Assembly: GCA_902786725.1 (NCBI GenBank)
Contig: CADADP010000019.1
Coordinates: 1 to 40,673 of the forward strand
From: an uncultured Bacteroidales bacterium
GTDB taxonomy: Bacteria > Bacteroidota > Bacteroidia > Bacteroidales > Muribaculaceae
DNA length: 40,673 bases
Reading direction: 5' to 3'
Shown piece after piece: positions 7,073 to 35,267 of this stretch; the stretch's first letter is position 1; every line of letters begins with the position of its first letter. Below the pieces are notes generated by a model, which saw only the letters and a program-made list of their open reading frames with translations, searched no databases and was not told the origin of the DNA. The translations under genes and the position numbers were made by a program.

Positions 7073-7744
7073 TTATTTCGCCTTTTCCAGTATCTTGTCT
7101 ATCATGCCGTAGTCCAAAGCTTCCTTCGATGTCATCCAGTAATCACGGTCACTGTCGGCATACACTTTGTCATAACTCTGGCCCGAGTGCTCCGATATTA
7201 TAGTATATAATTCCTTCTTCAACTTCAATATCTCTCGCGATGTAATCTCGATATCCGAAGCCTGACCTTGAATACCGCCCATAGGCTGATGTATCATCAC
7301 GCGAGAATGCTTCAAGGCAAACCTCTTGTCTTTCTCGCCCGCCACCAGCAGCACTGCGGCCATACTCGCTGCCATACCTGTGCAAATGGTGGAAACATCA
7401 CTGCTGATATATTGCATCGTGTCATATATCCCAAGACCGGCATAGACCGAGCCTCCGGGCGAATTAATGTATATCGACACATCTTTTCCGGGCTCCGATG
7501 AGTCAAGGAACAATAGCTGAGCCTGAATCACGTTGGCCGTGTAATCGTCAATCTGTGTGCCCAAGAATATTATTCGGTCCATCATCAGACGCGAAAACAC
7601 ATCCATCTGCGCCACGTTCAGTTTGCGCTCCTCAATGATTGTCGGCGAAATGTAACTACTTGTTATGTCATTGGCATACTGGTCCAGGGCCAGACCGTTC
7701 ATGCCCAGATGATTCACTGCGAAATTTCTGAATTCGTTCTTCAT
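7073..7744 (-). CDS. clpP: ATP-dependent Clp protease proteolytic subunit ClpP
   Basis: The serine peptidase barrel of the Clp system, 223 aa. The predicted triad is S127 (in GMAASMAA), H152 (in VMIHQPMGG) and D201 (in DRDYWM). The family oxyanion segment NSPGGSV is at 94-100. The GMAASMAA serine motif differs slightly from the common GQAASMGA but keeps the nucleophile. The N-terminus carries about 30 residues before the conserved ISPTIIEERKL segment, likely a propeptide. It is followed by clpX with a 25-base gap. The 319-base upstream region holds a perfect sigma-54-type promoter (7810-7826) and a Bacteroidetes housekeeping-type promoter (7863-7893), suggesting dual control of clpPX. Confidence 0.97.
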   Translation of the reverse strand: MKNEFRNFAVNHLGMNGLALDQYANDITSSYISPTIIEERKLNVAQMDVFSRLMMDRIIFLGTQIDDYTANVIQAQLLFLDSSEPGKDVSIYINSPGGSVYAGLGIYDTMQYISSDVSTICTGMAASMAAVLLVAGEKDKRFALKHSRVMIHQPMGGIQGQASDIEITSREILKLKKELYTIISEHSGQSYDKVYADSDRDYWMTSKEALDYGMIDKILEKAK

Positions 7745-7809
7745 ATTACTTGCTTTTAAATAAATAATTTACAAAATTAATGTTTTTTGTCTTATCTCAC
7801 AATCACTAT

Positions 7810-7826
7810 TGCAATAATCGTGCCAA
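7810..7826 (-). promoter_or_regulatory. Sigma-54 (RpoN) -24/-12 promoter of clpP
   Basis: The minus strand reads TTGGCACGATTATTGCA. This matches the extended sigma-54 consensus TTGGCACG-N4-TTGCW at every fixed position, with the essential GG and GC dinucleotides 10 bases apart. The GC element lies about 66 bases before the clpP start codon and points towards it. Transcription would start about 12 bases downstream of the GC. Confidence 0.75.
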
Positions 7827-7862
7827 CTTTTCTGGCCGCGACTACTCATTTCGTAACCGCTG

Positions 7863-7893
7863 CAAAGATATATCTCTCGGCATCCATTGTCAA
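7863..7893 (-). promoter_or_regulatory. Housekeeping-type promoter upstream of clpP
   Basis: On the minus strand TTG (7893-7891) is followed after 20 bases by TATCTTTG (7870-7863), a full TAnnTTTG match. It lies upstream of the sigma-54-type site, so transcripts from it would run through that site into a leader of about 110 bases. Confidence 0.5.
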
Positions 7894-7990
7894 TGTCAAT
7901 TTCTGCAGTTCACTAATTCCTTCTATTCACGCACATTTCCACTCTGTTTGCCTGTTCAGCGAAGAACCTGTCGCCCCTCATATTCCACTC

Positions 7991-8031
7991 AAAAGCAACG
8001 ATGAGCCTCTTTCTCGGGAGACTCATCGTTG
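7991..8031 (-). terminator. Rho-independent terminator of tig
   Basis: CAACGATGAG (7996-8005) pairs perfectly with CTCATCGTTG (8022-8031). On the minus strand the stem is followed by CTTTTG. It sits 33 bases after the tig stop and separates tig from clpP. Confidence 0.85.
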
Positions 8032-8063
8032 TCAGAAATTATCATTCTTGAGACGAGTAACGA

Positions 8064-9416
8064 TTATTTCTCGAAGAGTTTGTTAAACTCTTCCACACTC
8101 ACCGTCTTCTCTTCTATTGTCACACTATCCTTGATAGCGGCATACACTTTGTCGTCCATTGCCTGATTGCTAATCTGTTCGCTATACTCGGGATTCTCAA
8201 GTAACTCATGAGCGTAGCGATCCAGAACATCGTCGGGCAGATTGCTCATGCCATACTGGGCAAACTGCTGAGCGGCCATATAACGTGCATACTTCACCTT
8301 GTCTTCTGCCTCCACCTTCACTTCCAGGTTACGGGCTATCTTCTCGCGAATCAGCTGCCATTGCAGCGCGTCCGAGGTTTTGTCATAGTCTTCTGCCACC
8401 TGCTCAGCGGTCTTGTCTTTACTACGTGTGGCAAGGAAGCGCTTCAGGAACTCATCGGGGAGTTCCAGTTTACCCACTTTCTTACGAAGTACGCGCTCGG
8501 CATCCACCGTGAAGCGGTAGTTACTGTCGGTCTTCAGCTGGTTGCCTATCATTTCTTTAAGTTTGGCGCGGTATTCCTCCTCTGTCTTAGCCACTCCTTT
8601 GCCCAAGACCTCATCATAGAAATCCTCGCCCATCTCGGCATCCTCATTCACCAGAATCTCACTTATAGTAAATTTAAAATCGCTCTTGATGTCTTTCGCT
8701 TGCGCCTTGTCAATGTTCAGCATCGATGCTATCTCGGCCTCACTCCCATCAGCAGCCTTTGCGGGATTTATCACGACTTCAGCACCCGTCTTGGCGCCTA
8801 TCAGTTTAGCACGCTCGCCTTCATCCTTGATATGGCGAGGTAAAAGCAACGTGCGCTCCACCTTCAGCCCACCTTCTTTCTCGCTTCCATCCTCGTTAAG
8901 CTCGGTCATCGAGCCTCGAACCAGCGAGTCCTCTGCGGCTTCTTCTCCGGGAACCTGCTTGCCGAAGCGCTTGCGATACGTCTTGTTCTGGTTTTCCACC
9001 ATCTCGTCGCTCACCTCAATGTCGTAGTAAGGTATCTTAACGCGCTTGTCCAGTTTGCACTCAAACTCCGGTGCCAAGCCCAAATCAAACTTGAACTCAA
9101 AGTCACGACCCTTCTCAAAGTCAATCTTCGACTCCACCGACATCATCGGCTCGCCAAGTAAATCCACCTTGTTGTTTACTATATAATCGGTCAGGGCTCG
9201 AGTCACCTTGTGATCCACCACATCTGCGCGTACACTCGGCCCGTAGAATTTCTCGAGCAACTGTGTAGGCACTTTCCCGGGGCGGAAACCCTTAAGCGGA
9301 CGGCGCTGTCCCATCTCTCTTAATCCCTTCTTGAATTCGTCCTTGTAGTCTTGTTCATTAATCGATATCGTCAGCACTGCTGTCACGTTACCGGTTTTGT
9401 CAAATGTTACGTCCAT
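8064..9416 (-). CDS. tig: Trigger factor, ribosome-associated chaperone
   Basis: The product is predicted to bind at the ribosome exit tunnel and protect nascent chains; 450 aa, the size expected for Bacteroidetes. The N-terminal ribosome-binding domain has the segment GFRPGKVP near residues 43-50, corresponding to the GFRxGKxP signature that contacts protein L23. The middle region is divergent compared with the Proteobacterial FKBP-like domain, as is usual in this phylum. The long helical C-terminal chaperone domain follows. It lies immediately before clpP and clpX, a conserved arrangement in the phylum. It has its own terminator, and upstream a sigma-54-like promoter (9524-9540) overlapping a housekeeping-type promoter (9498-9529). 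Confidence 0.93.
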   Translation of the reverse strand: MDVTFDKTGNVTAVLTISINEQDYKDEFKKGLREMGQRRPLKGFRPGKVPTQLLEKFYGPSVRADVVDHKVTRALTDYIVNNKVDLLGEPMMSVESKIDFEKGRDFEFKFDLGLAPEFECKLDKRVKIPYYDIEVSDEMVENQNKTYRKRFGKQVPGEEAAEDSLVRGSMTELNEDGSEKEGGLKVERTLLLPRHIKDEGERAKLIGAKTGAEVVINPAKAADGSEAEIASMLNIDKAQAKDIKSDFKFTISEILVNEDAEMGEDFYDEVLGKGVAKTEEEYRAKLKEMIGNQLKTDSNYRFTVDAERVLRKKVGKLELPDEFLKRFLATRSKDKTAEQVAEDYDKTSDALQWQLIREKIARNLEVKVEAEDKVKYARYMAAQQFAQYGMSNLPDDVLDRYAHELLENPEYSEQISNQAMDDKVYAAIKDSVTIEEKTVSVEEFNKLFEK

Positions 9417-9497
9417 TTTTACTATTTATACTATTATGTTTTAATAATTTACTCTTCATTATATTGCCCCGAAATCTTCTTCTGAGCAAATTTTTTG

Positions 9498-9529
9498 CAA
9501 AATTACATCACTTATTCTTCTCTAGCAAA
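9498..9529 (-). promoter_or_regulatory. Housekeeping-type promoter of tig
   Basis: On the minus strand TTTG (9529-9526) is followed after 20 bases by TAATTTTG (9505-9498), matching TTTG-N19/20-TAnnTTTG. The leader is about 75 bases. Its upstream box overlaps the GC element of the sigma-54-like site, so the two could compete. Confidence 0.6.
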
Positions 9530-9540
9530 TTTCATGCCCA
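9524..9540 (-). promoter_or_regulatory. Sigma-54-like -24/-12 promoter of tig
   Basis: The minus strand reads TGGGCATGAAATTTGCT. The GG and GC dinucleotides have the required 10-base spacing. It departs from TTGGCACG-N4-TTGCW at two positions (second T is G, C is T). The GC element is about 108 bases before the tig start, nearly the same distance as for dnaK. Confidence 0.5.
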
Positions 9541-9655
9541 CTTTTTACGCTCATGCCTTTTTTGAAGCCCTTTTCCGAAGCCCACAAATTCTGTGCCTTT
9601 CCCCCCCTCCCTTACATATCTGAGGCCGATATGGCACATAATCTCCTCATAAGCG

Positions 9656-9686
9656 CAAAAGAGCCCGCTGTCGCAGCCGGCTCTTT
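9656..9686 (-). terminator. Terminator of the ECF-type sigma factor gene
   Basis: AAAGAGCC (9658-9665) pairs with GGCTCTTT (9679-9686). On the minus strand the stem runs into TTTTG. It lies 47 bases after the sigma factor stop. Confidence 0.75.
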
Positions 9687-9732
9687 CCTGTAATTATGCT
9701 TTTGAAACGATTACTTGTTATTCTTGACATTC

Positions 9733-10323
9733 TCAGTACGATAGCACTATGTGGTTCTCTTCGGCAAGCCTGCGCATATTCAGAATTGCGTAGCGCATGC
9801 GACCAAGCGCTGTGTTTATGCTCACGTTGGTAATGTCCGCTATCTCCTTGAAACTCATATTGCGGTAATAGCGCATCACAAGCACCTCACGCTGATTGTC
9901 GGGTAATGCCTTTATTAGCCGGCGCACGTCTGTCTGAATCTGGCTCGTTATCAACTCGTCCTCCACGTTGGCCTCGCATAGCTCTTTCCTGTTGAGGATA
10001 TTAACCTCGTTCGAGTCGGTTGAACACTGGTTCTCGGCTTTCTCTTGGCGGAAAGAGTCTATTATCAGGTTGTGGGCTATACGTGTTATCCATGCGGCGA
10101 ACTTACCATTCTCCACATAGCGCCCCTGCTTTATGGTCATAATTGCTTTTACAAACGTCTCTTGAAAGATGTCGTTTGCAAGATCTTCATCTTTTACCGA
10201 ATGATAGATGTACGTGAAAATGCGATCCTTATGACGCTCTATTAGCGTGTCAAAAGCCTCATTACACCCATCGACATACGAAGCCACTAATTGCTCGTCG
10301 GTCAGTTTACTATGAATTTTCAT
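9733..10323 (-). CDS. RNA polymerase sigma-70 factor, ECF-like
   Basis: A 196-aa alternative sigma factor that would direct RNA polymerase to a special promoter set. Region 2 spans about residues 20-95 (AFDTLIERHKDRIFTYIYHSV, then DIFQETFVKAI and the AAWITRIAHNLIIDSFR segment). Region 4 spans about 130-190, with the helix-turn-helix MSFKEIADITNVSINTALGR. The long frame can be opened at a TTG two codons upstream, but ATG at 10323 (MKIHSKLTDE) is far more likely. No anti-sigma gene is adjacent, since the next gene on each side is unrelated. It is monocistronic, with a textbook promoter about 110 bases upstream and its own terminator. The regulon cannot be deduced from the sequence. Confidence 0.93.
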   Translation of the reverse strand: MKIHSKLTDEQLVASYVDGCNEAFDTLIERHKDRIFTYIYHSVKDEDLANDIFQETFVKAIMTIKQGRYVENGKFAAWITRIAHNLIIDSFRQEKAENQCSTDSNEVNILNRKELCEANVEDELITSQIQTDVRRLIKALPDNQREVLVMRYYRNMSFKEIADITNVSINTALGRMRYAILNMRRLAEENHIVLSY

Positions 10324-10431
10324 TACCAATTATTACTAAATGTTCTTATTGAGTAATGTTCACGTCGATAGGCAGTATGTTTTAATTAATAATTATAATT
10401 TTAATGTGATTTTTATTTGCGTAAATCGGTG

Positions 10432-10462
10432 CAAATTTATATACTTTTTTTATAACTCCAAA
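10432..10462 (-). promoter_or_regulatory. Bacteroidetes-type promoter of the sigma factor gene
   Basis: On the minus strand TTTG (10462-10459), 19 bases, then TAAATTTG (10439-10432): an exact fit to the phylum's primary promoter consensus. The leader of about 100 bases is long enough for post-transcriptional control, though I see no clear structure in it. Confidence 0.8.
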
Positions 10463-10581
10463 GTTTTTTTTCAAAAAAAGTATGTTTCACAACATAAAAA
10501 TTCACAAAATAGGACCTACTAACCCACCACTGACCATTGCTTATCACTGCTTGTACTCACACTAATTCGGCCTATTTACTC

Positions 10582-10618
10582 AAAAAAGGACGCAACGGTT
10601 TCAGGTCCGATGCGTCCT
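10582..10618 (-). terminator. Terminator of the C10 protease gene
   Basis: AGGACGCA (10587-10594) pairs perfectly with TGCGTCCT (10611-10618). On the minus strand the stem ends in a run of six T. It lies 28 bases after the stop. Confidence 0.9.
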
Positions 10619-10645
10619 CTATGAGTGTCTAATCGCATGTTCCGA

Positions 10646-13054
10646 CTAAGTGCCCATAACAATGTTTGCAAGGGCCACAACGTCCGACACATTCACATCT
10701 TCATCACCGTTCAGGTCTGCCGCTTCAAAATAGAACGTTTCTGGAATGTCACCCATCACATAATTCGCCAGGGCCACAGCATCCGTTACATTCACTTCTC
10801 CGTCCCCATTCACATCACCGGGGAGCAGCGTCACCGTCTCCTTACCGGTTAAGTGGAAATAGCCCCACACCGCGGCCGCTGCGTAGTCGCTCACTGAGTA
10901 GTATTCTACACTCACATAATAATCGCCCGCTGGAAGCTCTTTAAACTCGCATTCCACCGGTATCGAGCCGCCGGCGGCTATGCTCACTGGCTCTATCTTA
11001 ACCCCATACAAATTCCCATACTGAGAATTCTCTATTTTTCGAATAAGTCGTATGCGGATTTGGTCTCGATACTCCGAACTTCCGGTGTTGTTTATCCTAA
11101 CTTTCATGTGGAATATGTCACTATCCACTGTATATGTGTTCCGGTCCAAGTCGTCCAAACTTATAAAACTGGCTGTTAACGAGGCGCTCGCGGCATTATT
11201 CACGTTCACAACCATGCTTCCAAGCTCATTCTCGCAATCCTCGTCGGTGTAGAACTTCAGCGTATATGAGCCGGTCGCTGTCACCTTAAAGTGCAGATAC
11301 ACGTCATCGCTTTCCCCGGGCTTAACATTCGTCGCGGCCACTGTTGCGAGAGAACCGTTCACTGTCATATAGATGGTCCCGAAGTCCACGGTCCCATTAT
11401 TGGTTAGATTTAACATCACCTCAATGTTTTTGTTCGGATTTGCCTCCTCGGTCAGCGCGGTGTAGTTGAGCGTGTAATTTGTCTCAAGTGCGCCGCTGCT
11501 CGAGTCGGCCGATCCTTTTGGGGTAAGCGTCAATCCTTTACCGCCTTTGTCTGTTCGGCTCACTTGCTCAATTTTTGCTTCTATGTATGTCACGTCGCTC
11601 CCGTCAGCAGGGTACCATGGACCACTCTCGTCGCCATCGCTCACCACTGGCACTATTCGGTAGGTTCCAGGCCCTATTCCCGCACCAAAACTCAATGTCG
11701 CTGGATATGAACAACCATATAGGTAGCCCCAATCACTAATACCCCCGTAATCAAGCACCTGGAGCAACTCATCACCATCATAGAGTGCCCAGCCAAGCAC
11801 GCAATCGCTCTGACCTCCCATCAAATTATAGAAGCCACAGGACACCTGCACATCAGTGAAATTATCGGTAACTGACTGACGGATAAGTGACGGCGTCGTA
11901 ACAGACACACTGTTCACAACCACTCCATTCACCGCATTTGACTCAGTATTCGGTTCTATACCGATAAGCATATTCAGCGCTCTAACATAGCCGTCAGCGC
12001 CACTGATGCTTCCCGAGCCGCCTCCCTGTGGACACAGAACATGCAATTGGTAATAACCGTTATATGAGCCTCGCCAACCCCAATTGATATGGTATAAGCC
12101 TTCTCCGTCATAGCCGTCGCACACAAACTCATGTCCACCGCTCAATTTCGAGCCGGCGAGCAACACCGGGCGCTTTGCGCTCAGCTCACTGTATATTATC
12201 TTTTCCCACTCTTCATTTCCCACATAGTCATGCATCACATTTCTCGCCTTAGGTGAATATTTGAATATGTTCACAAATGCATTGGCAATGTACGCCGATG
12301 CGCCCGATGCATCCACTCCATAGCTCATTTTCACTGCTTGCCCGCAGCAACGCATCAGCGCTGCCACCGCATCAGCACTCGTGCCCTTTTCATCAGCTGT
12401 ATAGAAATCCTTCATCGCATCCCAGTTGAGGGTAGTCGCATTCCATGCTGGCACTTCAATGCCGCTAGTGTAACTTGGTAGTGCCGGCACGCTCTGTGGC
12501 CACTTGTGATAATACATTATCTGCGCCATCGCTGTCGCTACACAGCCGGTCAGACATGTGTCTTGGTTCACAGTTGGGCATAAGTTGTTGAATGGCGTGC
12601 CTTGGTCCCATTTCGATTTTAGCATTGGCCTAATTGCTCTCTTCGTGGCTACTCTCTTCGCTTTTGCCACGGCACTCCCCTCTCCGGCTTCTGCTATGGC
12701 GGCAATCTGCGTAGCATACATATTAAGCCACCACTGCACGTTGCTTGGCACGTTACTCGCGTCCCATGCCCCTTCATCACCGTATGCCAGTATCTGGTCA
12801 GCGCAATCATCTCCAGCCACCATCACCCATGCGTTTTTCTCAGTGGTGTTAAATACGTAGTAAGCCGCTTTCTCCGCTGTCGCACCTTGCATACGAGCCT
12901 TGTGAACCGCCTTCTTTGTCACAACATGCCCCAAGGCTCGCGAGGTAAAGAAACGCTCGGCTATTGCACTCGCCTCGGTTTCACTTATCGATTCGGCTTT
13001 TATTGCCTGTGTGCCTATCACCAGCAACAGCAACATAAGTAAAGTCTTTTTCAT
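10646..13054 (-). CDS. Secreted C10-family (streptopain-like) cysteine protease with dockerin-like tail
   Basis: An exported cysteine protease related to SpeB and interpain, 802 aa. I start at 13054 (MKKTLLMLLL) because a signal peptide begins there (cleavage near KAES, about residue 20). Residues 21-130 form the Spi-type prodomain. The catalytic Cys is C171 in TGCVATAMAQIMYYHKWP and the catalytic His is H308 in GGHEFVCDGY; the family NWGWRG segment follows. Residues about 380-740 appear to be beta-sandwich domains. The last ~58 residues hold two dockerin-type repeats (GDVNGDGEVNVTDAVAL and DLNGDEDVNVSDVVAL), likely Ca2+-binding. No T9SS tail was recognised. It has a strong terminator but no visible promoter of its own: the upstream operon's hairpin lies only 39-72 bases before its start. 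Confidence 0.93.
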   Translation of the reverse strand: MKKTLLMLLLLVIGTQAIKAESISETEASAIAERFFTSRALGHVVTKKAVHKARMQGATAEKAAYYVFNTTEKNAWVMVAGDDCADQILAYGDEGAWDASNVPSNVQWWLNMYATQIAAIAEAGEGSAVAKAKRVATKRAIRPMLKSKWDQGTPFNNLCPTVNQDTCLTGCVATAMAQIMYYHKWPQSVPALPSYTSGIEVPAWNATTLNWDAMKDFYTADEKGTSADAVAALMRCCGQAVKMSYGVDASGASAYIANAFVNIFKYSPKARNVMHDYVGNEEWEKIIYSELSAKRPVLLAGSKLSGGHEFVCDGYDGEGLYHINWGWRGSYNGYYQLHVLCPQGGGSGSISGADGYVRALNMLIGIEPNTESNAVNGVVVNSVSVTTPSLIRQSVTDNFTDVQVSCGFYNLMGGQSDCVLGWALYDGDELLQVLDYGGISDWGYLYGCSYPATLSFGAGIGPGTYRIVPVVSDGDESGPWYPADGSDVTYIEAKIEQVSRTDKGGKGLTLTPKGSADSSSGALETNYTLNYTALTEEANPNKNIEVMLNLTNNGTVDFGTIYMTVNGSLATVAATNVKPGESDDVYLHFKVTATGSYTLKFYTDEDCENELGSMVVNVNNAASASLTASFISLDDLDRNTYTVDSDIFHMKVRINNTGSSEYRDQIRIRLIRKIENSQYGNLYGVKIEPVSIAAGGSIPVECEFKELPAGDYYVSVEYYSVSDYAAAAVWGYFHLTGKETVTLLPGDVNGDGEVNVTDAVALANYVMGDIPETFYFEAADLNGDEDVNVSDVVALANIVMGT

Positions 13055-13092
13055 AATTCTTTCAGAGTTTTGAGGTCTTTTCGTAAACAATA

Positions 13093-13126
13093 AGCCCCTG
13101 CGCTGCTTCTTTAAGGCGTAGGGGCT
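13093..13126 (-). terminator. Hairpin after the YtxH/holin-like operon, before the C10 protease
   Basis: AGCCCCTGCGC (13093-13103) pairs with GCGTAGGGGCT (13116-13126) with one G-U. On the minus strand it is followed by TTATTGTTT, a weak U-tract, so readthrough into the protease gene is plausible. Confidence 0.65.
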
Positions 13127-13136
13127 CCTTATTTGG

Positions 13137-13412
13137 TTATTTGAATTTGCGCCAAATCTTCAATAACGTCCGTGTTGCCTGATAACTCAGTATCAAGTAG
13201 TCTGCGAACTTGAGCTTACTCACAAGGCTATTCTTGAATAGCAACCCTCGCATTCCGCCACTCTCCACCTTATTCTTGGTGTTGTCCAGCAGATTGGTCA
13301 TCTGGCTCTTGCCGGCTTCAAGTTTCACCGCCGACAACGCGCGTCTGTAGCGCAATTCGTCCAGTGTCAAGCCCTGCCATTTGGCCGGTTCCGGAGTCTC
13401 ACTTTGTCTCAT
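13137..13412 (-). CDS. Small conserved-looking protein of unknown function (91 aa)
   Basis: I do not recognise a family. It is a basic, helical protein without a clear membrane segment; the best hydrophobic stretch is FADYLILSYQATRTLL (about residues 69-84). It overlaps the end of the upstream Holin-X-like gene by 14 bases, which argues that it is translated and that it acts with that protein. It is the last gene of the four-gene operon. Confidence 0.7.
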   Translation of the reverse strand: MRQSETPEPAKWQGLTLDELRYRRALSAVKLEAGKSQMTNLLDNTKNKVESGGMRGLLFKNSLVSKLKFADYLILSYQATRTLLKIWRKFK

Positions 13413-13761
13413 TTTCTCTGTCGTCGGGGGTTAAAAACAATCTGGTTACAAATCTGGTCACAGGGTCGGTTATCCATTGCTTGCGCATATAGAACACAAT
13501 GGCCATTAGGCTCAATAGCATCATGGCTACCAGTAGTAGAGCTGTCCAATATGAGCCCAGAGCGTCGGCAAGCCACAAAACCAGCCCCAGGGCTATTATA
13601 AATATCACAAAGATGCAGATAACTAGCAACACTGCGAATAGCGCCACTGCCGACAATAGTACCGACAGTTTTTCCACTGCCGTCAACTTGCCGTAATCCA
13701 AATGAAGACTTAAGTACGACTTAGCCTCCTCCCATAACTTGCGGAAGTCTGTGTCTCCCAT
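13399..13761 (-). CDS. Holin-X / phage-holin-superfamily-III-like membrane protein
   Basis: A 120-aa protein with an amphipathic N-terminal region (residues 1-30) and two strong membrane segments (about 33-58 and 68-92), followed by a basic, charged tail ending in TPDDRENETK. This is the layout of the PF07332-type family, which in bacterial chromosomes is found beside YtxH genes and is not a lysis holin. It starts 5 bases after the second YtxH gene and overlaps the next gene by 14 bases. An envelope-stress role is inferred from context only. Confidence 0.8.
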   Translation of the reverse strand: MGDTDFRKLWEEAKSYLSLHLDYGKLTAVEKLSVLLSAVALFAVLLVICIFVIFIIALGLVLWLADALGSYWTALLLVAMMLLSLMAIVFYMRKQWITDPVTRFVTRLFLTPDDRENETK

Positions 13762-13766
13762 CGCTT

Positions 13767-13964
13767 TTACTGGTCTATTTGGGCACTAATCTGCTCCACC
13801 AGTTGCTCCACCTCATCATCAGTGAAGTCTATTCCTTTTTCTTTAAGGATATTCTTAATTCTGGCGCGCAAATCACTACCCTTTTCTGGCGCAAACAGCA
13901 ATGCTGCGGCACAGCCCACTATAGCTCCTCCCAGAAACGCGTATAAAACATTAAGTGCTCTCAT
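13767..13964 (-). CDS. YtxH domain protein (second copy)
   Basis: A 65-aa protein with one N-terminal membrane segment (about residues 5-26) running into the YtxH hallmark LLFAPEKGSDLR, then a charged helix. It is a clear paralogue of the next gene upstream, sharing GGAI, LLFAPEKG and a KEKGI segment. YtxH proteins are linked to general stress in Firmicutes; the biochemical role is unknown. The gap to the first copy is 23 bases. Confidence 0.85.
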   Translation of the reverse strand: MRALNVLYAFLGGAIVGCAAALLFAPEKGSDLRARIKNILKEKGIDFTDDEVEQLVEQISAQIDQ

Positions 13965-13987
13965 TTTTAGTCTTTTTTAAATGTTTA

Positions 13988-14203
13988 TTACTTTGCTTCA
14001 GCCTCTACTGACTTAATCTCACGGGTTATGTCATCTACCAGGTTATCCAACTTCTTGCCGGGTAGGTTTATGCCCTTCTTCTTAAGTGCTTCCATTATTC
14101 GGTTGCGTGTCTCATCTCCTTTTTCCGGTGCAAACAATAGGCCCACTGCGGCCCCTGCTATCGCACCACCTATCACTGCCAGTAAAATGTTTAGTGGTTT
14201 CAT
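13988..14203 (-). CDS. YtxH domain protein (first copy)
   Basis: A 71-aa protein: membrane segment at about residues 5-25 (LLAVIGGAIAGAAVGLLFAP), hallmark LLFAPEKGDETR, then a helical charged tail (LKKKGINLPGKKLDNL). It is the first gene of the operon YtxH-YtxH-holin-like-unknown, which diverges from uvrA across 212 bases. A housekeeping-like promoter and a weak sigma-54-like motif lie in that gap. Confidence 0.87.
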   Translation of the reverse strand: MKPLNILLAVIGGAIAGAAVGLLFAPEKGDETRNRIMEALKKKGINLPGKKLDNLVDDITREIKSVEAEAK

Positions 14204-14234
14204 AATCTATCGTTTTTTTGAATAATTACTATTG

Positions 14235-14266
14235 CAAATTAAATCACACTTTTTCAAATAAGCAAA
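14235..14266 (-). promoter_or_regulatory. Promoter of the YtxH operon
   Basis: On the minus strand TTTG (14266-14263), 20 bases, then TTAATTTG (14242-14235), one mismatch from TAnnTTTG. A weak sigma-54-like motif (GGCA-N6-TTTGCT, 14277-14261) overlaps its upstream box. Confidence 0.5.
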
Positions 14267-20251: not shown

Positions 20252-20397
20252 GCATTAATTAGTGAAAAATTTCTTTATTCAAGCAAAAAAAATTATTTTA
20301 GCACGATTTTTGCTGTACTCTAACATAATAGTGCTTGTTTATTTTAATCAATTTGTAAGAGCACGATTGTTATTAATTGAAAAACTCTATTTGATAT

Positions 20398-22605
20398 ATG
20401 AACAAAGACTTGGAATTACTACGCAAAGCATCCGATTTATTGCAAAAAGACCAGTTTGCTCAAGCGCTTTCTCGCACCGAAGATGTGGCAAGAAATGCCG
20501 CCAACTGGGATTTATCGCAACGTCTTGCCCAGATTAGGATGTCTTACGAACTTATGCTGTCCTACTTCTCGCAAGGCATCGATGATGAAGCGCGCTCACA
20601 AGTTCTCGTTGAACTTAAAATGTCACTACACGATATTATCGATAGCATTACTCTCCGCTATGGCCTCGCTGAGCAATCACGGTTATATTTCGTCGTTAAG
20701 AATTCGTTTGATGGTAAGTCCTTTGCTGATTATTTCGCTCAATTTTCCGGACTTAATAACAAACTCGTACTTCTTAATTCTGTCGATGTGGCAGAACGTA
20801 ACATGTCTGCCATAAAGTCACTTGAGAATGACATCACCGATACCGAAAATAATATCTTCCGCTATTTATGGACTGCGGGCAAATTGTCGCCAAACGAGGT
20901 GGAACTGATTTTGTCCGCGGCAAATGACTCGTCTTTCCCATCTCACGTGCTTTGCCTCATTACTTCAGCTCTGTTGATGGCACTGCTTGAGTTCTACGAT
21001 GAGCAAAAACTTATAACGATCTTCCGCATTTACTCCTCATCAGCCCCTCTGCAAGTAAGACTAAGGGCCATTGTAGGAATCGTTCTCGCAATGTTTGTCA
21101 ATGATAAGCGGGTGGCGATGTCTCGCAATATCCGTGAGCTTGTCGCGGAACTTGCCGACGACTCGGTCTTCTGTCGCGATGTTGAAACGGTATTCATACG
21201 CCTCGTAAATGCAAGAAACACACAGAATTTGGCCGAATTTCTTAACAATGACATCCTTCCTGGATTTAAATCTCTCGAAACTGATTTAAAAAACAACCTT
21301 CGTGGGGCTGACCCGGCCGATATCGCCGACCTCGCCGAGAACCCTATATGGCAAGAAAAACTGGAAGATAGTGGCTTAGCGAAGAAAATGGAAGAAATTA
21401 ACGAAATTCAGCAGCAAGGGGGTGATGTTCTCATATCCGCATTTTCGCGCTTGAAAATCTTCCCTTTCTTCAACACCATGTCTAATTGGTTCCTACCATT
21501 CCACCTATCTGCGTCTTGGGTCATAAGCGAGTCCGACCGACAGATATTCAACACTCTTGCATCTGTGCCCTATCTGTGCGACAGCGACAAGTTCTCCGCC
21601 TATTTCAGCATGAAAAACTCTGCCAACGACAAATATGCAGGGGTCATGAGGCAGGTTGCCGAAGAGGCCGATGAGATTGCCGAAGACAATCGCAACTCTC
21701 TTGATAATGAAGAAAAAACAATCGACTCCATCATCAATAAATACATACAAGACCTATACCGCTTCTTCACCCTCTATTCAAGGCGAAAAGAGTTCTATCC
21801 GCTTTTCGACACCAAATTTAATCTGCTCACCGTTCCTTTCATCGCGCAGATTCTCAACACCGAGCACACTCTTTCCATTATCGCTGAGTTCTATTTCCAT
21901 AATAAGTTCTACGACGACGCAATCTATTTCTTCAACCGCCTACTCGAGCACAAACCGCAAAACACGCCACTTATTTTGCAAAAGATTGGCTTCGCTTATC
22001 AGAACAAGGGCAACATGGAAAAAGCACTCTCATATTACTTGCGTTTCGAGTTGGCCATCGATAACGATTTCTGGAACACAAGGCACATAGCCTCGTGCTA
22101 CTCTTCAATGAAAGACCACAAGCACGCCCTCGAATATTACCGCAAGGCCGACTCCATTTCGCCCGATAATATCAGTGTTAATCTCAACATCGGTCATTGC
22201 TTGTTGGCTATGGGAAATGCCCAGGAAGCATTAAAGTATTACTTTAAAACAAGCTTCTTAAACGACCACAAACACAGGTCTTGGCGACCCATAGCGTGGT
22301 GCTCCTTCTTGACCGGAAACTACGAGCAGAGTTGCAATTATTATTCGCAAATCGTGACGCAAACATCACCCACGGCGCAGGATTTTCTAAATTACGGCCA
22401 TGTCTTGCTCGCTTCGGCTCAGCGCAAGCAAGCCATTGAGCAATACCGCTCGGCTATCACCTTTCTCAATGGCGACGTCACTCGGTTTGTGGATATGTTT
22501 CGTACCGACATGTCTCTTCTTAGAGACAAAGGTGTGACTCTCGACGACATCCACTTATCAATTGATTCGGCTATTATGCTTTATAATAACTCTTTAAAAC
22601 AATAA
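20398..22605 (+). CDS. Large cytoplasmic-looking TPR repeat protein of unknown function
   Basis: A 735-aa protein without signal peptide or membrane segment. The N-terminal ~480 residues are helical and match no family I know; they contain an acidic, Glu/Asn-rich segment near 425-450. Residues about 499-690 form consecutive tetratricopeptide repeats, recognisable from FYDDAIYFFNRLLEHKPQN, MEKALSYYLRFE, HKHALEYYRKADSISPDN and AQEALKYYFKTS. This implies a scaffold or protein-binding role. The M3 peptidase follows after 21 bases, so the two are cotranscribed and may be functionally linked. No convincing promoter consensus was found in the 210 bases upstream. Confidence 0.85.
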   Translation: MNKDLELLRKASDLLQKDQFAQALSRTEDVARNAANWDLSQRLAQIRMSYELMLSYFSQGIDDEARSQVLVELKMSLHDIIDSITLRYGLAEQSRLYFVVKNSFDGKSFADYFAQFSGLNNKLVLLNSVDVAERNMSAIKSLENDITDTENNIFRYLWTAGKLSPNEVELILSAANDSSFPSHVLCLITSALLMALLEFYDEQKLITIFRIYSSSAPLQVRLRAIVGIVLAMFVNDKRVAMSRNIRELVAELADDSVFCRDVETVFIRLVNARNTQNLAEFLNNDILPGFKSLETDLKNNLRGADPADIADLAENPIWQEKLEDSGLAKKMEEINEIQQQGGDVLISAFSRLKIFPFFNTMSNWFLPFHLSASWVISESDRQIFNTLASVPYLCDSDKFSAYFSMKNSANDKYAGVMRQVAEEADEIAEDNRNSLDNEEKTIDSIINKYIQDLYRFFTLYSRRKEFYPLFDTKFNLLTVPFIAQILNTEHTLSIIAEFYFHNKFYDDAIYFFNRLLEHKPQNTPLILQKIGFAYQNKGNMEKALSYYLRFELAIDNDFWNTRHIASCYSSMKDHKHALEYYRKADSISPDNISVNLNIGHCLLAMGNAQEALKYYFKTSFLNDHKHRSWRPIAWCSFLTGNYEQSCNYYSQIVTQTSPTAQDFLNYGHVLLASAQRKQAIEQYRSAITFLNGDVTRFVDMFRTDMSLLRDKGVTLDDIHLSIDSAIMLYNNSLKQ

Positions 22606-22626: not shown

Positions 22627-24672
22627 ATGATTAATAACACAAACCCACTGTTATCCGATTTTAAAACCGCTCATGGAGTGGTTCCTTTCGACAAAATCAC
22701 TGTCAATGATTTTGAACCGGCTATCTTGCAGGCTATCGACGAGCACGCTAAAGAGGTGCAGCACATTGTAGCCCAAACTGCTCTGCCCTCTTTTGAGAAC
22801 ACAATCGTTGCTCTGGAACGCTCAGGTAGTATGCTCGAACGTGTTCTCGGTGTCTTCTATCCTTTGCTTTCGGCTAACGCCGACGACTCGCTCTTGGCAC
22901 TCTCCAACAAACTCGCGCCCATAATATCCGAGCATAGCAATAGCATCACTCTCAATCAGCAACTCTGGCAGCGCATTAAGTTCGTTCACGAGCACTTCAA
23001 GCCTGCCCTCTTCGACGAAGAGGACTGTATGCTCATGCGCGAAACCTACAAGTCTTTTGTGCGTTGCGGGGCCGACCTTTCCGATGCCGACCGCGAAAAA
23101 TATCGACAAATCTCACTTCGGCTCACAGAACTCTCGCTCAAATTTGAGCAAAACGAGCTTAAGGAGAACTCAAATTATAAGTTATGGCTCACGGCCAATG
23201 ACCTCGACGGACTCCCGGAAAGCGCCATCGAAGCCGCGCAAATGGCCGCAAAAGAAAACGGACAAGATGGTGAATACCTAATCACTCTTCACGCTCCAAG
23301 CTACGGACCGTTTATGAAATACTCTTCGCGGCGCGACTTGCGCGAAAAACTCTATCGAATGTATAACGCGCAGTGCACGGCCGGTGAATATTCCAATTTA
23401 CAGATATTGCGAGAGATTGCGAACTCTCGCCTGCAACTTGCCAATCTTCTCGGATACAAATCCTATGCCGACTACCGGCTCGACGACACCATGGCCAAGA
23501 ACTGTCACACTGTCTATGAGATGCTCCGCGAGTTGCGTCAAGCTTATCTTCCCGTCCAGAGGAAAGACCTCGACAGGTTGCGGAATTTCGCGTCTCATCT
23601 CGAAGGACACCACATTACCATCATGCCTTGGGACTACTCCTACTATGCCAACAAGGAGAAAGAGCAACAGTATAGCATAAATGATGAGGCATTACGGCCT
23701 TACTTTGAGCTCTCGGCTGTGACAAAAGGTGTTTTCGGGCTTGCGACTAAGCTCTATGGACTCAAGTTCTCCGAAAATCTCAGCGCTCCTGTCTATCATC
23801 CCGAAGTCCGCGTTTTTAATGTATATGATTACGACGATTCTTTTTTAGGCGTACTATACACCGACTTCTTTCCGCGTGCAACCAAGCAGAGTGGCGCATG
23901 GATGACCAACTTCCGTGAACAATATGTGGATTCGTCCGGAAACGACGTGCGTCCTCTTGTCACGCTCACCATGAACTTCACTCGCCCCACACCCACCAAG
24001 CCGTCGCTGCTAACCTTCTCTGAGGTTGAGACGTTCGTGCACGAATTTGGACATGCGCTCCATAGCCTACTATCCAAGTGCAAGTACTCATCTCTTTCCG
24101 GCACTAATGTCCACCGCGACTTCGTGGAAATGCCGTCGCAGTTCTGCGAAAACTATATCTACGAACAAGAGTTCCTCGACAGTTTCGCTAAGCATTACAT
24201 CACAGGTGAATCCATACCGCAAGACCTCATTCAAAAGTTAATCAAGTCTTCTCAGTATGGTGCCGCTTACTCGTGCGTCCGTCAACTCGGTTTCGGCTTC
24301 ATTGATATGGCTTGGCACACAATTACCGAGCCATACCAAGGCGACATCTTCGATTTCGAGAACAAAGCTCTCAGCTCAGTAAAGGTTTTCGAGCCGGTAC
24401 ATGGGTGTATCATGTCGCCGCAGTTCGGACACATCTTCTCCGGCGGTTACGCCTCCGGTTACTATGGCTACAAATGGGCCGAGGTTCTCGATGCCGACAT
24501 CTTCTCTAAATTCAAAGAAGAAGGCATATTCAACCCCACAACTGCCCGATGCTTGCGCGACTCAATCCTTTCTCGTGGTGGCACACGCGATGCAATGGAA
24601 ATGTTTGTTAACTTCCGTGGCCGCAAACCACAAATCGATGCGCTCATGAAACGCGACGGAATCAAATCGTAA
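22627..24672 (+). CDS. dcp: M3 family metallopeptidase (peptidyl-dipeptidase Dcp-like)
   Basis: A zinc oligopeptidase, 681 aa, which in Dcp relatives removes C-terminal dipeptides from short peptides. The zinc site is HEFGH at residues 472-476 with the third ligand E501 in FVEMPSQ. The C-terminal substrate-binding segment GHIFSGGYASGYYGYKWAEVLDAD is characteristic. There is no signal peptide, so it probably acts on cytosolic peptides, perhaps the products of ClpXP and other proteases. It is second in an operon with the TPR protein and has a strong terminator 28 bases downstream. Confidence 0.94.
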   Translation: MINNTNPLLSDFKTAHGVVPFDKITVNDFEPAILQAIDEHAKEVQHIVAQTALPSFENTIVALERSGSMLERVLGVFYPLLSANADDSLLALSNKLAPIISEHSNSITLNQQLWQRIKFVHEHFKPALFDEEDCMLMRETYKSFVRCGADLSDADREKYRQISLRLTELSLKFEQNELKENSNYKLWLTANDLDGLPESAIEAAQMAAKENGQDGEYLITLHAPSYGPFMKYSSRRDLREKLYRMYNAQCTAGEYSNLQILREIANSRLQLANLLGYKSYADYRLDDTMAKNCHTVYEMLRELRQAYLPVQRKDLDRLRNFASHLEGHHITIMPWDYSYYANKEKEQQYSINDEALRPYFELSAVTKGVFGLATKLYGLKFSENLSAPVYHPEVRVFNVYDYDDSFLGVLYTDFFPRATKQSGAWMTNFREQYVDSSGNDVRPLVTLTMNFTRPTPTKPSLLTFSEVETFVHEFGHALHSLLSKCKYSSLSGTNVHRDFVEMPSQFCENYIYEQEFLDSFAKHYITGESIPQDLIQKLIKSSQYGAAYSCVRQLGFGFIDMAWHTITEPYQGDIFDFENKALSSVKVFEPVHGCIMSPQFGHIFSGGYASGYYGYKWAEVLDADIFSKFKEEGIFNPTTARCLRDSILSRGGTRDAMEMFVNFRGRKPQIDALMKRDGIKS

Positions 24673-28695: not shown

Positions 28696-28734
28696 AAAAA
28701 AATGACTCACTGCCACACATCGTGTAACAGTGAG
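28696..28734 (-). terminator. Terminator of the glycogen operon, possibly bidirectional
   Basis: CTCACTG (28706-28712) pairs with CAGTGAG (28728-28734), with an inner ACAC/GTGT stem. On the minus strand a run of seven T follows (28702-28696). The same hairpin lies 49 bases after the LuxR-type gene on the plus strand. Confidence 0.85.
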
Positions 28735-28758
28735 CCTTAATATCACGTCTCTGATAGG

Positions 28759-31314: not shown

Positions 31315-31332
31315 AACTTATCTTAATTGATT

Positions 31333-32979
31333 TTATTTTTCTGTTTTATTCGGTTTTCTCTTGTCCTTATTTATTATTGCCTCATTATATGCGTCATAGT
31401 AGTAGGTCATAAAGTTCTCCCACGACGCGATTTGAGCTGTCTCGCGCGCCTTGCCGTTAAGTTTGCGCTTCTCGGCACTACTCTTCATGGCTATCTCCCG
31501 CGTCAGCCTAGCTATCTCGCTCACGACGTCCGCGTAGTTTGAATCGTCCCTATGCACCACCTTCACGCCACACTCTGCGGCATTTCCGCCTTTTGAACTC
31601 AGAACCCACTGCCCAAATCCGGCCAAGTCGGTCGTTATCGTTGGCACACCAAACGCTATGCTCTCAAGTGGCGTGTATCCCCACGGTTCATAATACGAGG
31701 CGAATATCGTCAGGTCCAAGCCTGGCAACAGGTCATAGTACGATTTGTTCATTATGCCGTCGTTACCGTTGAGGTACGAAGGCACATATATCACGTTCAC
31801 TCGCTCATGTTCTTCATTATTGATGCCGCTTTGGCACAACTTACACAACACACTGTCGCTCTCGCCGTTATACAATTCATGAGTTATCACATCACTTGGC
31901 AACCTGTCTCTCTGTCCACTGGCCAAGTTTGTCTTCAGGTCTTCCCTTCCGCATTTCACCCAGGCCGGAACCAGTATCAGCGCCAATATCTCGCGATTCA
32001 AGTCATTCTCTCTCCGCAATGTGTTCATCGCATCCACAAACACATCTAAACCCTTATTCCTGAATTCGCAGCGCCCCGATGTGGCCACTATCAGCGTATC
32101 ATCGCCAAACGTCTTGCCTGTCAGTGACTCTGCCACACTCAGTATCGTTCTCCGAGCGCTGCGTCTCGCGTTGGTCAGAGCCACGCCACGTGGCACAAAT
32201 TCTTGCTCAAAGGCGTTGGGTGTCACTATCGGCCTGCGTTCCAGTAGCTGCTCGCATTCGCGCGCCGTCACTTCACTCACCGTCGTAAACGCGTCGGCAT
32301 TATGCGCGGCGGCCTTTTCAAGCGAGTGCTTCGATTCCATATTCAACTCGTGCGACATTTGGTCGCCATTATAGCCTTTCAAGTAGTCGTATAGTGGTTT
32401 GCCGTTGCCGCAAATGCTGCGTCCTATGCTCGTGGCATGGGTCGTGAACACCGTCGCTATCTCAGGACACATCCACTTCACGTAGAGCAAGCCCATGCCG
32501 GTTGTCCATTCGTCAAAGTGCGCCACAACGTTGCCGCTCACGCTCTTATTCCTGCTTAGGCTCTCAATTACCATGCCACTCGCCAGCCCAAACGCGCACG
32601 CCTCGTCATAGTCGCCGTAGGCATGTAGTGAATCCACTCCATACATCTCCCACATCCGGCCATACATCTCGTCTTTTACCTTATAAACTCCGGTAAAATC
32701 CACCAGTATTGCCACTGGCGTTCCGGGCACCTGCCAGCGACCTACACGCACAGTAATACCGCACGGTAACTGCGCCGACTCGCGCCAAGCCTTCAGCAGC
32801 GTCTTCGACTCCTTAAAAAACGGCGATTCATTTTCCCCTTTCCACAGGTCTGGCCCTATGAAAATCACGTTGTCTTTATATCTTTGTGTAAGGGTGTTGG
32901 CTTTTGTCGATAGCACAGCATAGATGCCGCCCACCTTATTACATACTTCCCAACTTACTTCAAACAAAAGGTCTTTCAT
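31333..32979 (-). CDS. Glycogen synthase, GT3 (eukaryote-like) family
   Basis: Transfers glucose from a nucleotide sugar to growing glycogen; 548 aa. The N-terminus (LFEVSWEVCNKVGGIYAVLSTKA) closely follows the GT3 family of fungal and animal glycogen synthases, unlike bacterial GlgA (GT5). The C-terminal half has FASYYEPWGYTPLESIAFGVPTITTDLAGFG, the GT-B nucleotide-sugar site with the catalytic Glu. It is the first gene of the operon with glgP and has a perfect Bacteroidetes promoter 50-80 bases upstream. The sugar donor cannot be read from the sequence. Confidence 0.9.
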   Translation of the reverse strand: MKDLLFEVSWEVCNKVGGIYAVLSTKANTLTQRYKDNVIFIGPDLWKGENESPFFKESKTLLKAWRESAQLPCGITVRVGRWQVPGTPVAILVDFTGVYKVKDEMYGRMWEMYGVDSLHAYGDYDEACAFGLASGMVIESLSRNKSVSGNVVAHFDEWTTGMGLLYVKWMCPEIATVFTTHATSIGRSICGNGKPLYDYLKGYNGDQMSHELNMESKHSLEKAAAHNADAFTTVSEVTARECEQLLERRPIVTPNAFEQEFVPRGVALTNARRSARRTILSVAESLTGKTFGDDTLIVATSGRCEFRNKGLDVFVDAMNTLRRENDLNREILALILVPAWVKCGREDLKTNLASGQRDRLPSDVITHELYNGESDSVLCKLCQSGINNEEHERVNVIYVPSYLNGNDGIMNKSYYDLLPGLDLTIFASYYEPWGYTPLESIAFGVPTITTDLAGFGQWVLSSKGGNAAECGVKVVHRDDSNYADVVSEIARLTREIAMKSSAEKRKLNGKARETAQIASWENFMTYYYDAYNEAIINKDKRKPNKTEK

Positions 32980-33028
32980 AACCTGTTATTAATCAATGTG
33001 TTCGTAGAAATACTGCTATTTCAAACTG

Positions 33029-33059
33029 CAAATTTACGAAAAAAATCACACACCACAAA
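33029..33059 (-). promoter_or_regulatory. Bacteroidetes-type promoter of the glycogen operon
   Basis: On the minus strand TTTG (33059-33056), exactly 19 bases, then TAAATTTG (33036-33029), a full consensus match. The leader is about 45 bases. Confidence 0.8.
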
Positions 33060-33159
33060 CCCCTCTTTCGCACCACATTAAATTAATACAATGCAATCGT
33101 TTACCCAAACCGGCATAAACTCCATTTGGAAGTCGCTATTGACCCTCCCCTACCCGCGC

Positions 33160-33193
33160 AAAAAGTCCCGTCAGCCACAAAGCCAACGGGACT
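33160..33193 (-). terminator. Terminator of dnaK
   Basis: AGTCCCGT (33164-33171) pairs perfectly with ACGGGACT (33186-33193). On the minus strand the stem ends in TTTTT. It lies 28 bases after the dnaK stop. Confidence 0.9.
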
Positions 33194-33220
33194 CTTTATC
33201 CATGCTTATCTCGTCTGCGA

Positions 33221-35137
33221 TTATTTCACTTCCTCATAGGGCACATCTTCGGCACTGTTGCCGCTGTTCTGCTGAGGTCCTTGCGCACCGCCTTGGAACC
33301 CCGACTCACTTCCGGGCTGAGGACCTTGCTGACCTCCGGCTTGGCCATACATCTCTTGTGATGCGGCGTGGAACACTGTCTCCAATTCCTTCATTGCCGC
33401 GTCTATAGCATTCACGTCCTGAGCCTTGTGAGCGTCCTTCAACTTGCCCAGTGCGGCCTCTATCGGTGCTTTCTTGTCGGCCGGCAACTTGTCGCCAAGC
33501 TCCTTCATGCTCTTCTCCGTCTGGAAAATCATAGCGTCGGCCTGATTTATCTTGTCGATGCGCTCCTTCTCCTTCGCGTCGGCGGCGGCATTGGCCTCGG
33601 CTTCATCCTTCATTCGCTTAATCTCCGCGTCGCTCAGACCGCTCGAAGCCTCTATCCTGATGCTCTGCTCCTTGCCTGTGGCTTTATCCTTAGCGCTCAC
33701 GTTCATTATTCCGTTTGCATCCACCTCAAAGGTTACCTCTATCTGTGGCACGCCACGCGGTGCGGGGGCTATTCCATCCAAGTGGAACTTGCCCAGCGTC
33801 TTGTCATCCTTCGCCATCGGGCGCTCGCCTTGCAACACGTGTATTTCCACCTCTTGTTGGTTGTCGGCAGCGGTCGAGAACACTTGGGCCTTACGAGTAG
33901 GTATGGTCGTGTTGGCGTCTATCAACTTTGTCATCACTCCACCTAGGGTCTCAATGCCCACACTCAGCGGAACCACGTCAAGCAGAAGCACGTCTTTCAC
34001 ATCACCACTCAGCACACCGCCCTGAATTGCGGCTCCCACGGCAACCACCTCGTCGGGGTTAACGCCCTTCGACGGGGCCTTGCCAAAGAACTTCTGAACC
34101 ACTTCCTGAACCGCCGGTATTCGGGTTGAGCCTCCCACAAGTATCACCTCATTAATATCGTTCGTCGTCAAGCCTGCATCTCTCAGTGCCTGCTCGCATG
34201 GCTTAATCGTGGATTGAATCAGGTCATCGCACAACTTCTCAAACTGTGCGCGGCTCAGTGTCTTCACCAAGTGCTTCGGTATTCCGTTCACCGGCATGAT
34301 ATACGGCAGGTTAATCTCAGTCGTTGTCGAACTCGACAATTCTATCTTAGCCTTCTCTGCCGCCTCTTTCAAGCGTTGCAGCGCCATCGGGTCCTGACGC
34401 AGGTCAATGCCTTCCTCCTTCTGGAACTCATCAGCCAGCCAGTTGATGATTCGCTGGTCAAAGTCATCACCGCCCAGGTGCGTGTCACCATTGGTCGATT
34501 TCACCTCAAACACACCGTCGCCCAAGTTCAGAATCGAAATATCAAATGTTCCTCCGCCCAGGTCAAACACAGCTATATTCTTATCCTCTGCGCCCTTGTC
34601 CAGACCGTAAGCCAATGCCGCTGCCGTAGGCTCGTTTACGATTCGCTGAACATTCAAGCCCGCAATCTCGCCGGCCTCTTTAGTGGCCTTACGCTGAGAG
34701 TCATTAAAGTATGCCGGAACAGTAATCACAGCATCAGTCACACTCTGACCCAGATAATCCTCAGCGGTCTTTTTCATCTTCTGCAGTATCATTGCCGAAA
34801 TCTCTTGCGGTGTGTACTCACGACCGTCAATCTCCACTCGTGGCTGATTGTTGCCGTTATTCACCACCTTGTAGGGAACTCGAGACACCTCATTCGTTAC
34901 CTGATCAAAGCTCTCGCCCATAAACCTCTTTATTGAATACACCGTGCGAGTCGGATTCGTGATCGCCTGACGCTTTGCAGGATCACCCACCTTACGCTCG
35001 CCGCCATCAATAAACGCTACTATCGAAGGGGTCGTGTTACGCCCTTCACTATTGGGAATCACCACAGGATTGTTGCCCTCCAGTACCGAAACGCACGAAT
35101 TCGTGGTTCCCAAATCAATTCCTATAATCTTTGCCAT
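33221..35137 (-). CDS. dnaK: Molecular chaperone DnaK (Hsp70)
   Basis: An ATP-dependent chaperone, 638 aa, full length. The start [18 protein letters not shown] is the phosphate-1 motif. Further Hsp70 signatures are [31 protein letters not shown] and [13 protein letters not shown]. The interdomain linker [11 protein letters not shown] and the substrate-binding domain are intact. The tail is Gly/Gln-rich and ends EDVPYEEVK, as in typical bacterial DnaK. It is monocistronic: no grpE or dnaJ is adjacent. No TAnnTTTG promoter is seen upstream; instead a perfect sigma-54-type promoter lies at 35251-35267. Confidence 0.98.
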
Positions 35138-35250
35138 AATATAAATGTTTTAAATTATTATTCGTTTATACTTTAGTTTCAATTGTCTCATCACTTGCGG
35201 TTCATCGGCCATTCCAACTCGCCCCACTCATCACGAGACACTAACTTATT

Positions 35251-35267
35251 TGCAAATTCCGTGCCAA
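35251..35267 (-). promoter_or_regulatory. Sigma-54 (RpoN) -24/-12 promoter of dnaK
   Basis: The minus strand reads TTGGCACGGAATTTGCA, matching TTGGCACG-N4-TTGCW at every fixed position with GG and GC 10 bases apart. It points to dnaK, with the GC element about 114 bases before the ATG, giving a leader of about 100 bases. No CAAAnnTA (reverse of TAnnTTTG) occurs between it and dnaK. Confidence 0.8.

Follow-up and report, generated by a model that had tools for sequence, protein, structure and literature searches.

Sigma-54 Promoters of Chaperone and Protease Genes in a Muribaculaceae Genome, with a Predicted Orphan Activator and a Helically Phased Upstream Palindrome

Introduction

Chaperone and protease genes are usually controlled in bacteria by sigma-32 or by HrcA acting at the controlling inverted repeat of chaperone expression (CIRCE), and these heat-shock systems may be subject to feedback by the chaperones themselves. 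Here the control of the same genes is considered in an uncultured Bacteroidales bacterium of the family Muribaculaceae (GenBank assembly GCA_902786725.1), of which a stretch of 40,673 nucleotides (contig CADADP010000019.1, positions 1 to 40,673 of the forward strand; hereafter the window) carries dnaK and clpPX behind promoters of the sigma-54 (RpoN) type. The reading favored here, at a probability of about 0.8, is that four promoters in the window belong to a sigma-54 regulon spread over the genome, which would be opened by one bacterial enhancer-binding protein (bEBP), predicted to bind a palindrome upstream of the core chaperone promoters. The system would differ from those of sigma-32 and HrcA in employing sigma-54 promoters and an AAA+ activator rather than a sigma-70-family factor or a repressor.

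The closest described case is that of Flavobacterium psychrophilum, in which sigma-54 promoters (SM4) precede groES-groEL, lon, dnaK, grpE-dnaJ and clpB, rpoN is single and one promoter of the type (remFG-sprCDBF) was tested by mutation; the available portions of the paper give three PF00158 proteins for the species and leave the activator open (PMC9723704). An in-silico survey from 2025 found the Clusters of Orthologous Groups of GroEL, GroES, DnaK, DnaJ, GrpE, IbpA, Hsp90 and ATP-dependent proteases enriched under sigma-54 in Bacteroidota (PMC12316311). The central idea of the initial annotation of the window, a sigma-54 regulon of proteostasis genes, is therefore largely known at the level of the phylum from what these two sources present.

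The present genome resembles F. psychrophilum in having quality-control and envelope-stress genes under sigma-54 with a single rpoN, and the bEBP-lptE pair of that species (THC0290_0733-0732) is a near neighbor of groES-groEL (0729-0728), as it is here (PMC9723704). It differs in that clpPX stands outside the selection of F. psychrophilum promoters in print, where the accessible text names no enhancer. The survey, in its main text as accessible, assigns no activator to the regulon, names no enhancer and does not contain the word clp (PMC12316311). No assigned activator or enhancer for these chaperone promoters was found in the open-licence literature of PubMed Central, a body that does not cover subscription journals, and in the consulted portion of PMC3162934 none of Bacteroid-, Flavobacter- and Porphyromonas occurs. 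The regulon is known, while the activator, the enhancer and the phasing look new.

Sigma-54 Promoters in the Window

The exact consensus TGGCACG-N4-TTGCW was found at two sites in the window, 7810-7825 and 35251-35266, both on the minus strand, which bears out the promoters that the initial annotation had placed before clpPX and dnaK. The first site, TGGCACGATTATTGCA, lies 66 bp 5' of the ATG of clpP (7073-7744, minus strand), a gene followed on the same strand by clpX (5803-7047). A weight matrix derived from 19 sites of this genome that lie beyond the window (loci L047, L006, L007, L028 and L036 excluded) gives the clpP site 33.3 bits. The second, TGGCACGGAATTTGCA, forms the -24/-12 promoter 114 bp 5' of the ATG of dnaK (HSP70; 33221-35137, minus strand) and scores 21.4 bits. 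A site not seen previously, TAGCACGATTTTTGCT (20299-20314, plus strand; 25.8 bits, with one mismatch in the GG of the -24 element), was located 84 bp 5' of a gene for a tetratricopeptide repeat (TPR) protein of 735 amino acids (20398-22605, plus strand), which is followed after 21 bp by an M3 oligopeptidase gene of the oligopeptidase A or Dcp type (22627-24672, plus strand). The earlier statement that such sites occur in the window only before protein-quality-control genes had missed this strong site and does not hold. The fourth site, GGGCATGAAATTTGCT (9524-9539, minus strand; 18.6 bits), precedes the trigger factor gene tig (8064-9416, minus strand).

All four sites score higher than 16.7 bits, the maximum obtained from 20 shuffled windows. 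For tig this upholds the earlier proposal as far as the score is concerned, but the site is degenerate and poorly conserved in relatives. The motif at 14261 (minus strand), which had been proposed as a weaker sigma-54 site bringing a YtxH operon into the regulon, was rejected, as its 7.4 bits are at chance level (shuffled windows contain a mean of five sites above 8 bits). When the bare consensus was searched with up to two mismatches, 11 sites were found in the window against 7.2 expected, and 11 of 100 shuffles reached 11, so that enrichment by this measure is not clear.

Conservation of the Promoters in Bacteroidia

The class was taken as Bacteroidia from the ClpP relatives of the genome, the closest of which are metagenome-assembled genomes of Bacteroidales from rumen and gut, and was sampled by 158 genomes across 64 families. 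Regions upstream of dnaK were compared using one genome per family in 62 of the 64 families (f15 and f51, the latter being L271, were left out, as was L178). The box TGGCAY-N5-TTG is present 20-100 bp before the dnaK start in 49 of the 62, compared with none for either the antisense or the reversed pattern, and several of the families without the exact box have near variants by eye. Upstream of groES, for which 25 of 30 groEL loci were compared, TGGCAY-N6-TG occurs at 15 loci (antisense 1, reversed 0). A box lies within 250 bp upstream of clpP in just 12 of 80 relatives (controls 0), and clpPX is for this reason a patchy member of the regulon. For tig, the exact TGGCAY-N5-TTG was found within 250 bp upstream in 2 of 75 relatives, rising to 13 of 75 with up to one mismatch (antisense 2, reversed 4).

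It might be argued that these genes are read from ordinary housekeeping promoters of the TAnnTTTG type, with sigma-54-like boxes that are decorative or act as weak secondary promoters, stress control being arranged otherwise. TAnnTTTG-like boxes can indeed be recognized by eye before several targets, for instance 3' of the clpP box and of the tig box, and dual control like that of E. coli is common. The retention of the dnaK box in so many families with empty controls speaks against this, as does the mapping of 5' ends to such promoters for groES, lon, dnaK, grpE, htpG and clpB in F. psychrophilum, reported in the consulted part of PMC9723704, and we consider the explanation improbable.

Still less probable is that HrcA with CIRCE, or sigma-32, controls the chaperones here as in most bacteria and that sigma-54 is incidental. 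HrcA was detected in three of the 158 genomes (G037, G075 and G105, all of family f39) and not in the genome under study, and the best match to CIRCE before dnaK among the 62 families departs from it at 5 of its 18 bases, which contradicts the HrcA form of this explanation; sigma-32 was not searched for. The f39 dnaK examined (G037) has neither a sigma-54 box nor the palindrome described below, and a swap of regulators in that family is possible.

A Phased Palindrome Upstream of the Promoters

A de novo motif search in 29 dnaK upstream regions (close relatives included) returned the promoter together with a second element, with a score of 148 against 35-40 for shuffles. The second element resolves to a 13-bp palindrome, TGNC-N5-GNCA, which 48 of 62 families have in the region 70-200 bp upstream of dnaK; the other spacings from 0 to 12 occur there in 0-14 families and the reversed pattern in two. 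It also occurs upstream of groES at 14 of 25 loci (reversed 1). In the window a perfect copy, TGACAGGATGTCA (35291-35303, minus strand), has its centre 31 bp upstream of the -24 box of dnaK and is a candidate enhancer, or upstream activating sequence.

The palindrome lies at distances of 20-112 bp from the -24 box, measured from its centre, and for dnaK in 46 families these distances cluster at approximately 20, 30, 41, 50, 61, 72, 82 and 93 bp. Among periods scanned from 4 to 16 bp the best was 10.4 bp (R 0.83), the highest value in 5000 jittered distance sets being 0.48, and the periodicity was unchanged when the largest cluster (79-85 bp) was dropped (n = 32). Nine distances from eight groES loci, for which no null was computed, fall at 21, 40, 72, 81, 82, 82, 82, 92 and 93 bp, the phase seen at dnaK. 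Variation restricted to whole turns of the helix is the constraint expected of an activator that touches the polymerase while bound to DNA.

A second spacing, TGNC-N9-GNCA, was also raised, being present before dnaK in 14 of 62 families and before groES at 13 of 25 loci. Our first guess at the enhancer, TGTCA-N6-TGACA, was absent from the promoters of the genome itself and was rejected. Single TGTCA words number 19 in the 24 promoters of that genome (the set described below), against 7.6 in first-order Markov shuffles, none of 200 of which reached 19, and 6 downstream; this count was superseded by the N5 palindrome.

RpoN and the Orphan Activator

The genome contains a single rpoN with all three Pfam domains, a gene whose absence the initial annotation had named as fatal to its proposal, and rpoN was found in 154 of the 158 class genomes; the four genomes in which it was missed are assembled in 170 to 460 contigs. 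Four PF00158 matches were obtained in the genome, of which two lie inside Hsp100 genes, one is weak (contig C12, 21 bits, in a frame of 362 amino acids) and the last, with 223 bits, is a true bEBP on another contig than the window, in agreement with the earlier prediction of an activator encoded elsewhere. The bEBP has 436 amino acids comprising an AAA+ domain (18-184) with a GAFTGA loop, a lid (190-264), a linker and a Fis-type helix-turn-helix (HTH_8, 394-434). A domain search found nothing N-terminal to AAA+ and no sensor domain, and because the activator has no such domain the earlier claim that it senses protein stress remains unproven. Its gene is neighbored by those of an acyltransferase, LptE and an unmatched protein of 258 amino acids.

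The search for a conserved RpoN activator in relatives, also suggested in the initial annotation, gave a strong match to this protein (E ≤ 2.2e-87) in 155 of the 158 class genomes, with only approximately 1e-65 in the other three. The 30 best-matching orthologues, which were examined, all have 404-438 amino acids, no extra domain-sized N-terminus, a near-invariant helix-turn-helix and a conserved linker helix; their sigma-54 contact loop (loci L056-L085) reads GSFTGA in 19 and GAFTGA in 11, and an lptE-like gene is often found downstream. Among the places listed for the matches (150 for bEBP and 149 for groEL), 79 of 147 genomes have the bEBP gene upstream of groEL on the same strand and at most 12 kb away, with a median gap of 2.6 kb. 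No such linkage was seen with dnaK, which lies within 12 kb in none of 30.

The protein is similar to PspF of E. coli, a sigma-54 activator with a stress-linked regulon which likewise starts with its AAA+ domain and has no sensor domain of its own. The solved AAA+ domain of PspF is among the structure matches of the bEBP, and the start of AAA+ at residue 18, together with the uniform length of the orthologues, shows the absence of an N-terminal regulatory domain that is typical of activators of the PspF type. It differs from PspF in its linker, which is longer and contains a conserved helix (ERE-LYK-LF), in adjoining lptE and not psp genes, and in its predicted chaperone targets.

A mechanism may be proposed in which RNA polymerase with RpoN would wait at the -24/-12 boxes until opened by this single dedicated AAA+ activator, which would bind the 13-bp TGNC-N5-GNCA element on a fixed face of the helix upstream of the core chaperone promoters. 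Such a circuit of sigma-54 and bEBP would do the job performed elsewhere by sigma-32 or HrcA. It is our guess that the bEBP would be controlled from outside, a chaperone or protease holding or degrading it in the unstressed cell, as for sigma-32 and HrcA. The binding of the palindrome by the bEBP, the stress induction of the genes described here and the route of the signal are predictions drawn from sequence.

The Regulon in the Genome of Origin

In the genome, which is 88% complete and comprises 2.38 Mb in 73 contigs, the consensus occurs exactly at 12 sites and with up to one mismatch at 49, compared with 19 for the reversed pattern, while TGGYAY-N5-TTGCW occurs 33 times against 9 reversed. 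Of the 12 exact sites, 10 lie outside open frames of more than 200 codons, as do 15 of the 37 with one mismatch; the remaining 24 sites are mostly intragenic and probably due to chance. As the initial annotation had anticipated for a genome scan, many chaperone and protease operons are preceded by such intergenic sites: dnaK, clpPX, ClpB, a second Hsp100 (of ClpB or ClpC type), Hsp20, groES-groEL, lon and rsfS-ftsH, to which grpE may be added. Those before dnaK, groESL, grpE, lon and clpB match the published sigma-54 heat-shock regulon of Bacteroidota. The grpE and rsfS sites fall within the longest frame of their own gene (223 and 141 codons, respectively) and would be promoters only if a later ATG is the start.

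Other targets are secA, the signal peptidase gene lepB, and genes for a Bax1-I membrane protein, NfeD, TM2, DUF975, a holin-type membrane protein, an NhaC-type antiporter, a glycosyltransferase and unmatched proteins, and a few sites have no clear downstream gene. The regulon is one of proteostasis plus envelope, and the proposal of a purely proteostasis regulon fails on the many sites that precede envelope or uncharacterised genes. The observation made in the initial annotation is partly confirmed and its interpretation is partly supported.

Among the sites without a clear target, L025 (C8:28365) and L013 (C3:20403) are good intergenic boxes with no downstream frame of at least 60 codons, and it is possible that they serve genes for small membrane proteins or RNA. 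A perfect consensus at L006 (1501-1516; C9:52697-52712, minus strand) lies inside a frame of 633 codons, 406 bp before a tubulin-like gene, and is either a chance match or an intragenic promoter.

The palindrome is present in 8 of 24 promoters of this genome (L047 and L006 left out), with 9 hits against approximately 1.7 expected from the density in the window, 3 of 24 for the reversed pattern and none downstream. The promoters that bear it are those of dnaK, grpE, the second Hsp100 and five non-chaperone sites. Distances in the phase of the class were obtained for dnaK (31), grpE (83), NhaC (62) and L013 (91).

A Reduced Genome and the Composite Pattern

Genome G024 consists of one contig of 489,825 bases. 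It contains a single rpoN and a single bEBP match, of the orphan type, and keeps both elements upstream of dnaK (TGGCACAAGTATTGA and TGCCATTTAGTCA). A strict box search in it gave no exact site and five one-mismatch sites, one of them before dnaK; two are identical in sequence and presumably represent 16S rRNA.

The composite TGTCA-N45-75-TGGCAY-N5-TTG was found at 293 places when the 158 genomes were scanned, whereas its reverse gave 190. Among 145 distinct places listed, in 68 genomes (dnaK positions being known for 65 of these), at least 37 are within 200 bp before dnaK and at least 3 within 900 bp before groEL. The dnaK matches exceed chance, since two 200-bp targets in several Mb would catch almost none. 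In a search of four genomes the composite pattern gave five matches, three before dnaK and one before groES, compared with two for the reversed pattern.

Evidence Against and an Alternative Role for the Palindrome

Several observations weigh against an activator that opens the whole set through the palindrome. Most of the composite matches are due to chance or belong to other genes. The presence of the palindrome in just 8 of the 24 promoters is the main weakness, and five of those 8 belong to non-chaperone genes. It was not found upstream of clpPX (within 160 bp), groESL, lon, hsp20, ClpB, secA or lepB in the genome of origin; either this lineage has a less strict form of the site or certain promoters are activated in its absence. 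Distances at three loci there fit less well (L042, 105; L005, 35; L025, 11). A dyad analysis of the upstream regions of this genome (L047 and L006 excluded) gave nothing beyond shuffles, and an expectation-maximization search in them (L047, L006, L007 and L028 excluded) was marginal, with a score of 56.6 against 45.1-50.7 at width 16 and a result not exceeding shuffles at width 18. Across the class, in addition to the low frequency of the clpP box, the palindrome is within 300 bp in 2 of the 12 relatives that have it. In G024 the dnaK distance of 54 is off phase, and groES has neither strict pattern, a looser TGGCAT-N6-TG being visible by eye. Many members of the regulon fall outside proteostasis, and at 88% completeness a second activator could be missing from the assembly.

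This scarcity would be accounted for if the boxes were real and the palindrome were the operator of a separate regulator, such as a repressor, with the orphan bEBP acting elsewhere. Moreover, most class genomes have two or more bEBP matches, so that assignment by elimination works in just a few (G000, G024 and G109, each with one match, of the orphan type). A repressor, however, needs no placement by whole turns over 20-112 bp, which suits an activator that touches the polymerase, and the linkage of the bEBP to groEL (among the places listed), as well as the retention of both elements with one bEBP in the 490-kb genome, also count against an operator. It is unlikely in our view, although the least unlikely of the alternatives considered, and activation of the core chaperone promoters through the palindrome by the bEBP is preferred.

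Other Features of the Window

The minus strand at 10646-13090 encodes a streptopain-type cysteine peptidase (Peptidase_C10) with Spi inhibitor, CARDB and C-terminal dockerin type I domains, the last of which suggests a cell-surface assembly. Two tandem small genes at 13765-14220 (minus strand) encode proteins which by eye are YtxH-like with one helix and share the start AL/PLN-LLA...GGA..G.AA.LLFAPEKG.

Implications for Bacteroidia

For the class as a whole, the comparisons lean somewhat toward a heat-shock system in which a sensorless activator encoded next to lptE, and often near groESL, a phased enhancer and the sigma-54 promoters of dnaK, groESL and their partners would replace sigma-32 or HrcA. 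The activity of such a system may be governed externally, whether by chaperones, by proteases or by the status of lipopolysaccharide transport, and the system would be kept even in a genome of 490 kb. As regards how Bacteroidia induce their chaperones without HrcA, the available text of two papers provides sigma-54 promoters and leaves the activator open (PMC9723704, PMC12316311). The present work names one candidate activator gene, one candidate 13-bp enhancer and one spacing rule, by which the question is now testable. If correct, this would be a rare enhancer-driven sigma-54 system for a core housekeeping response, and one that can be recognized in the sequences of dozens of families.

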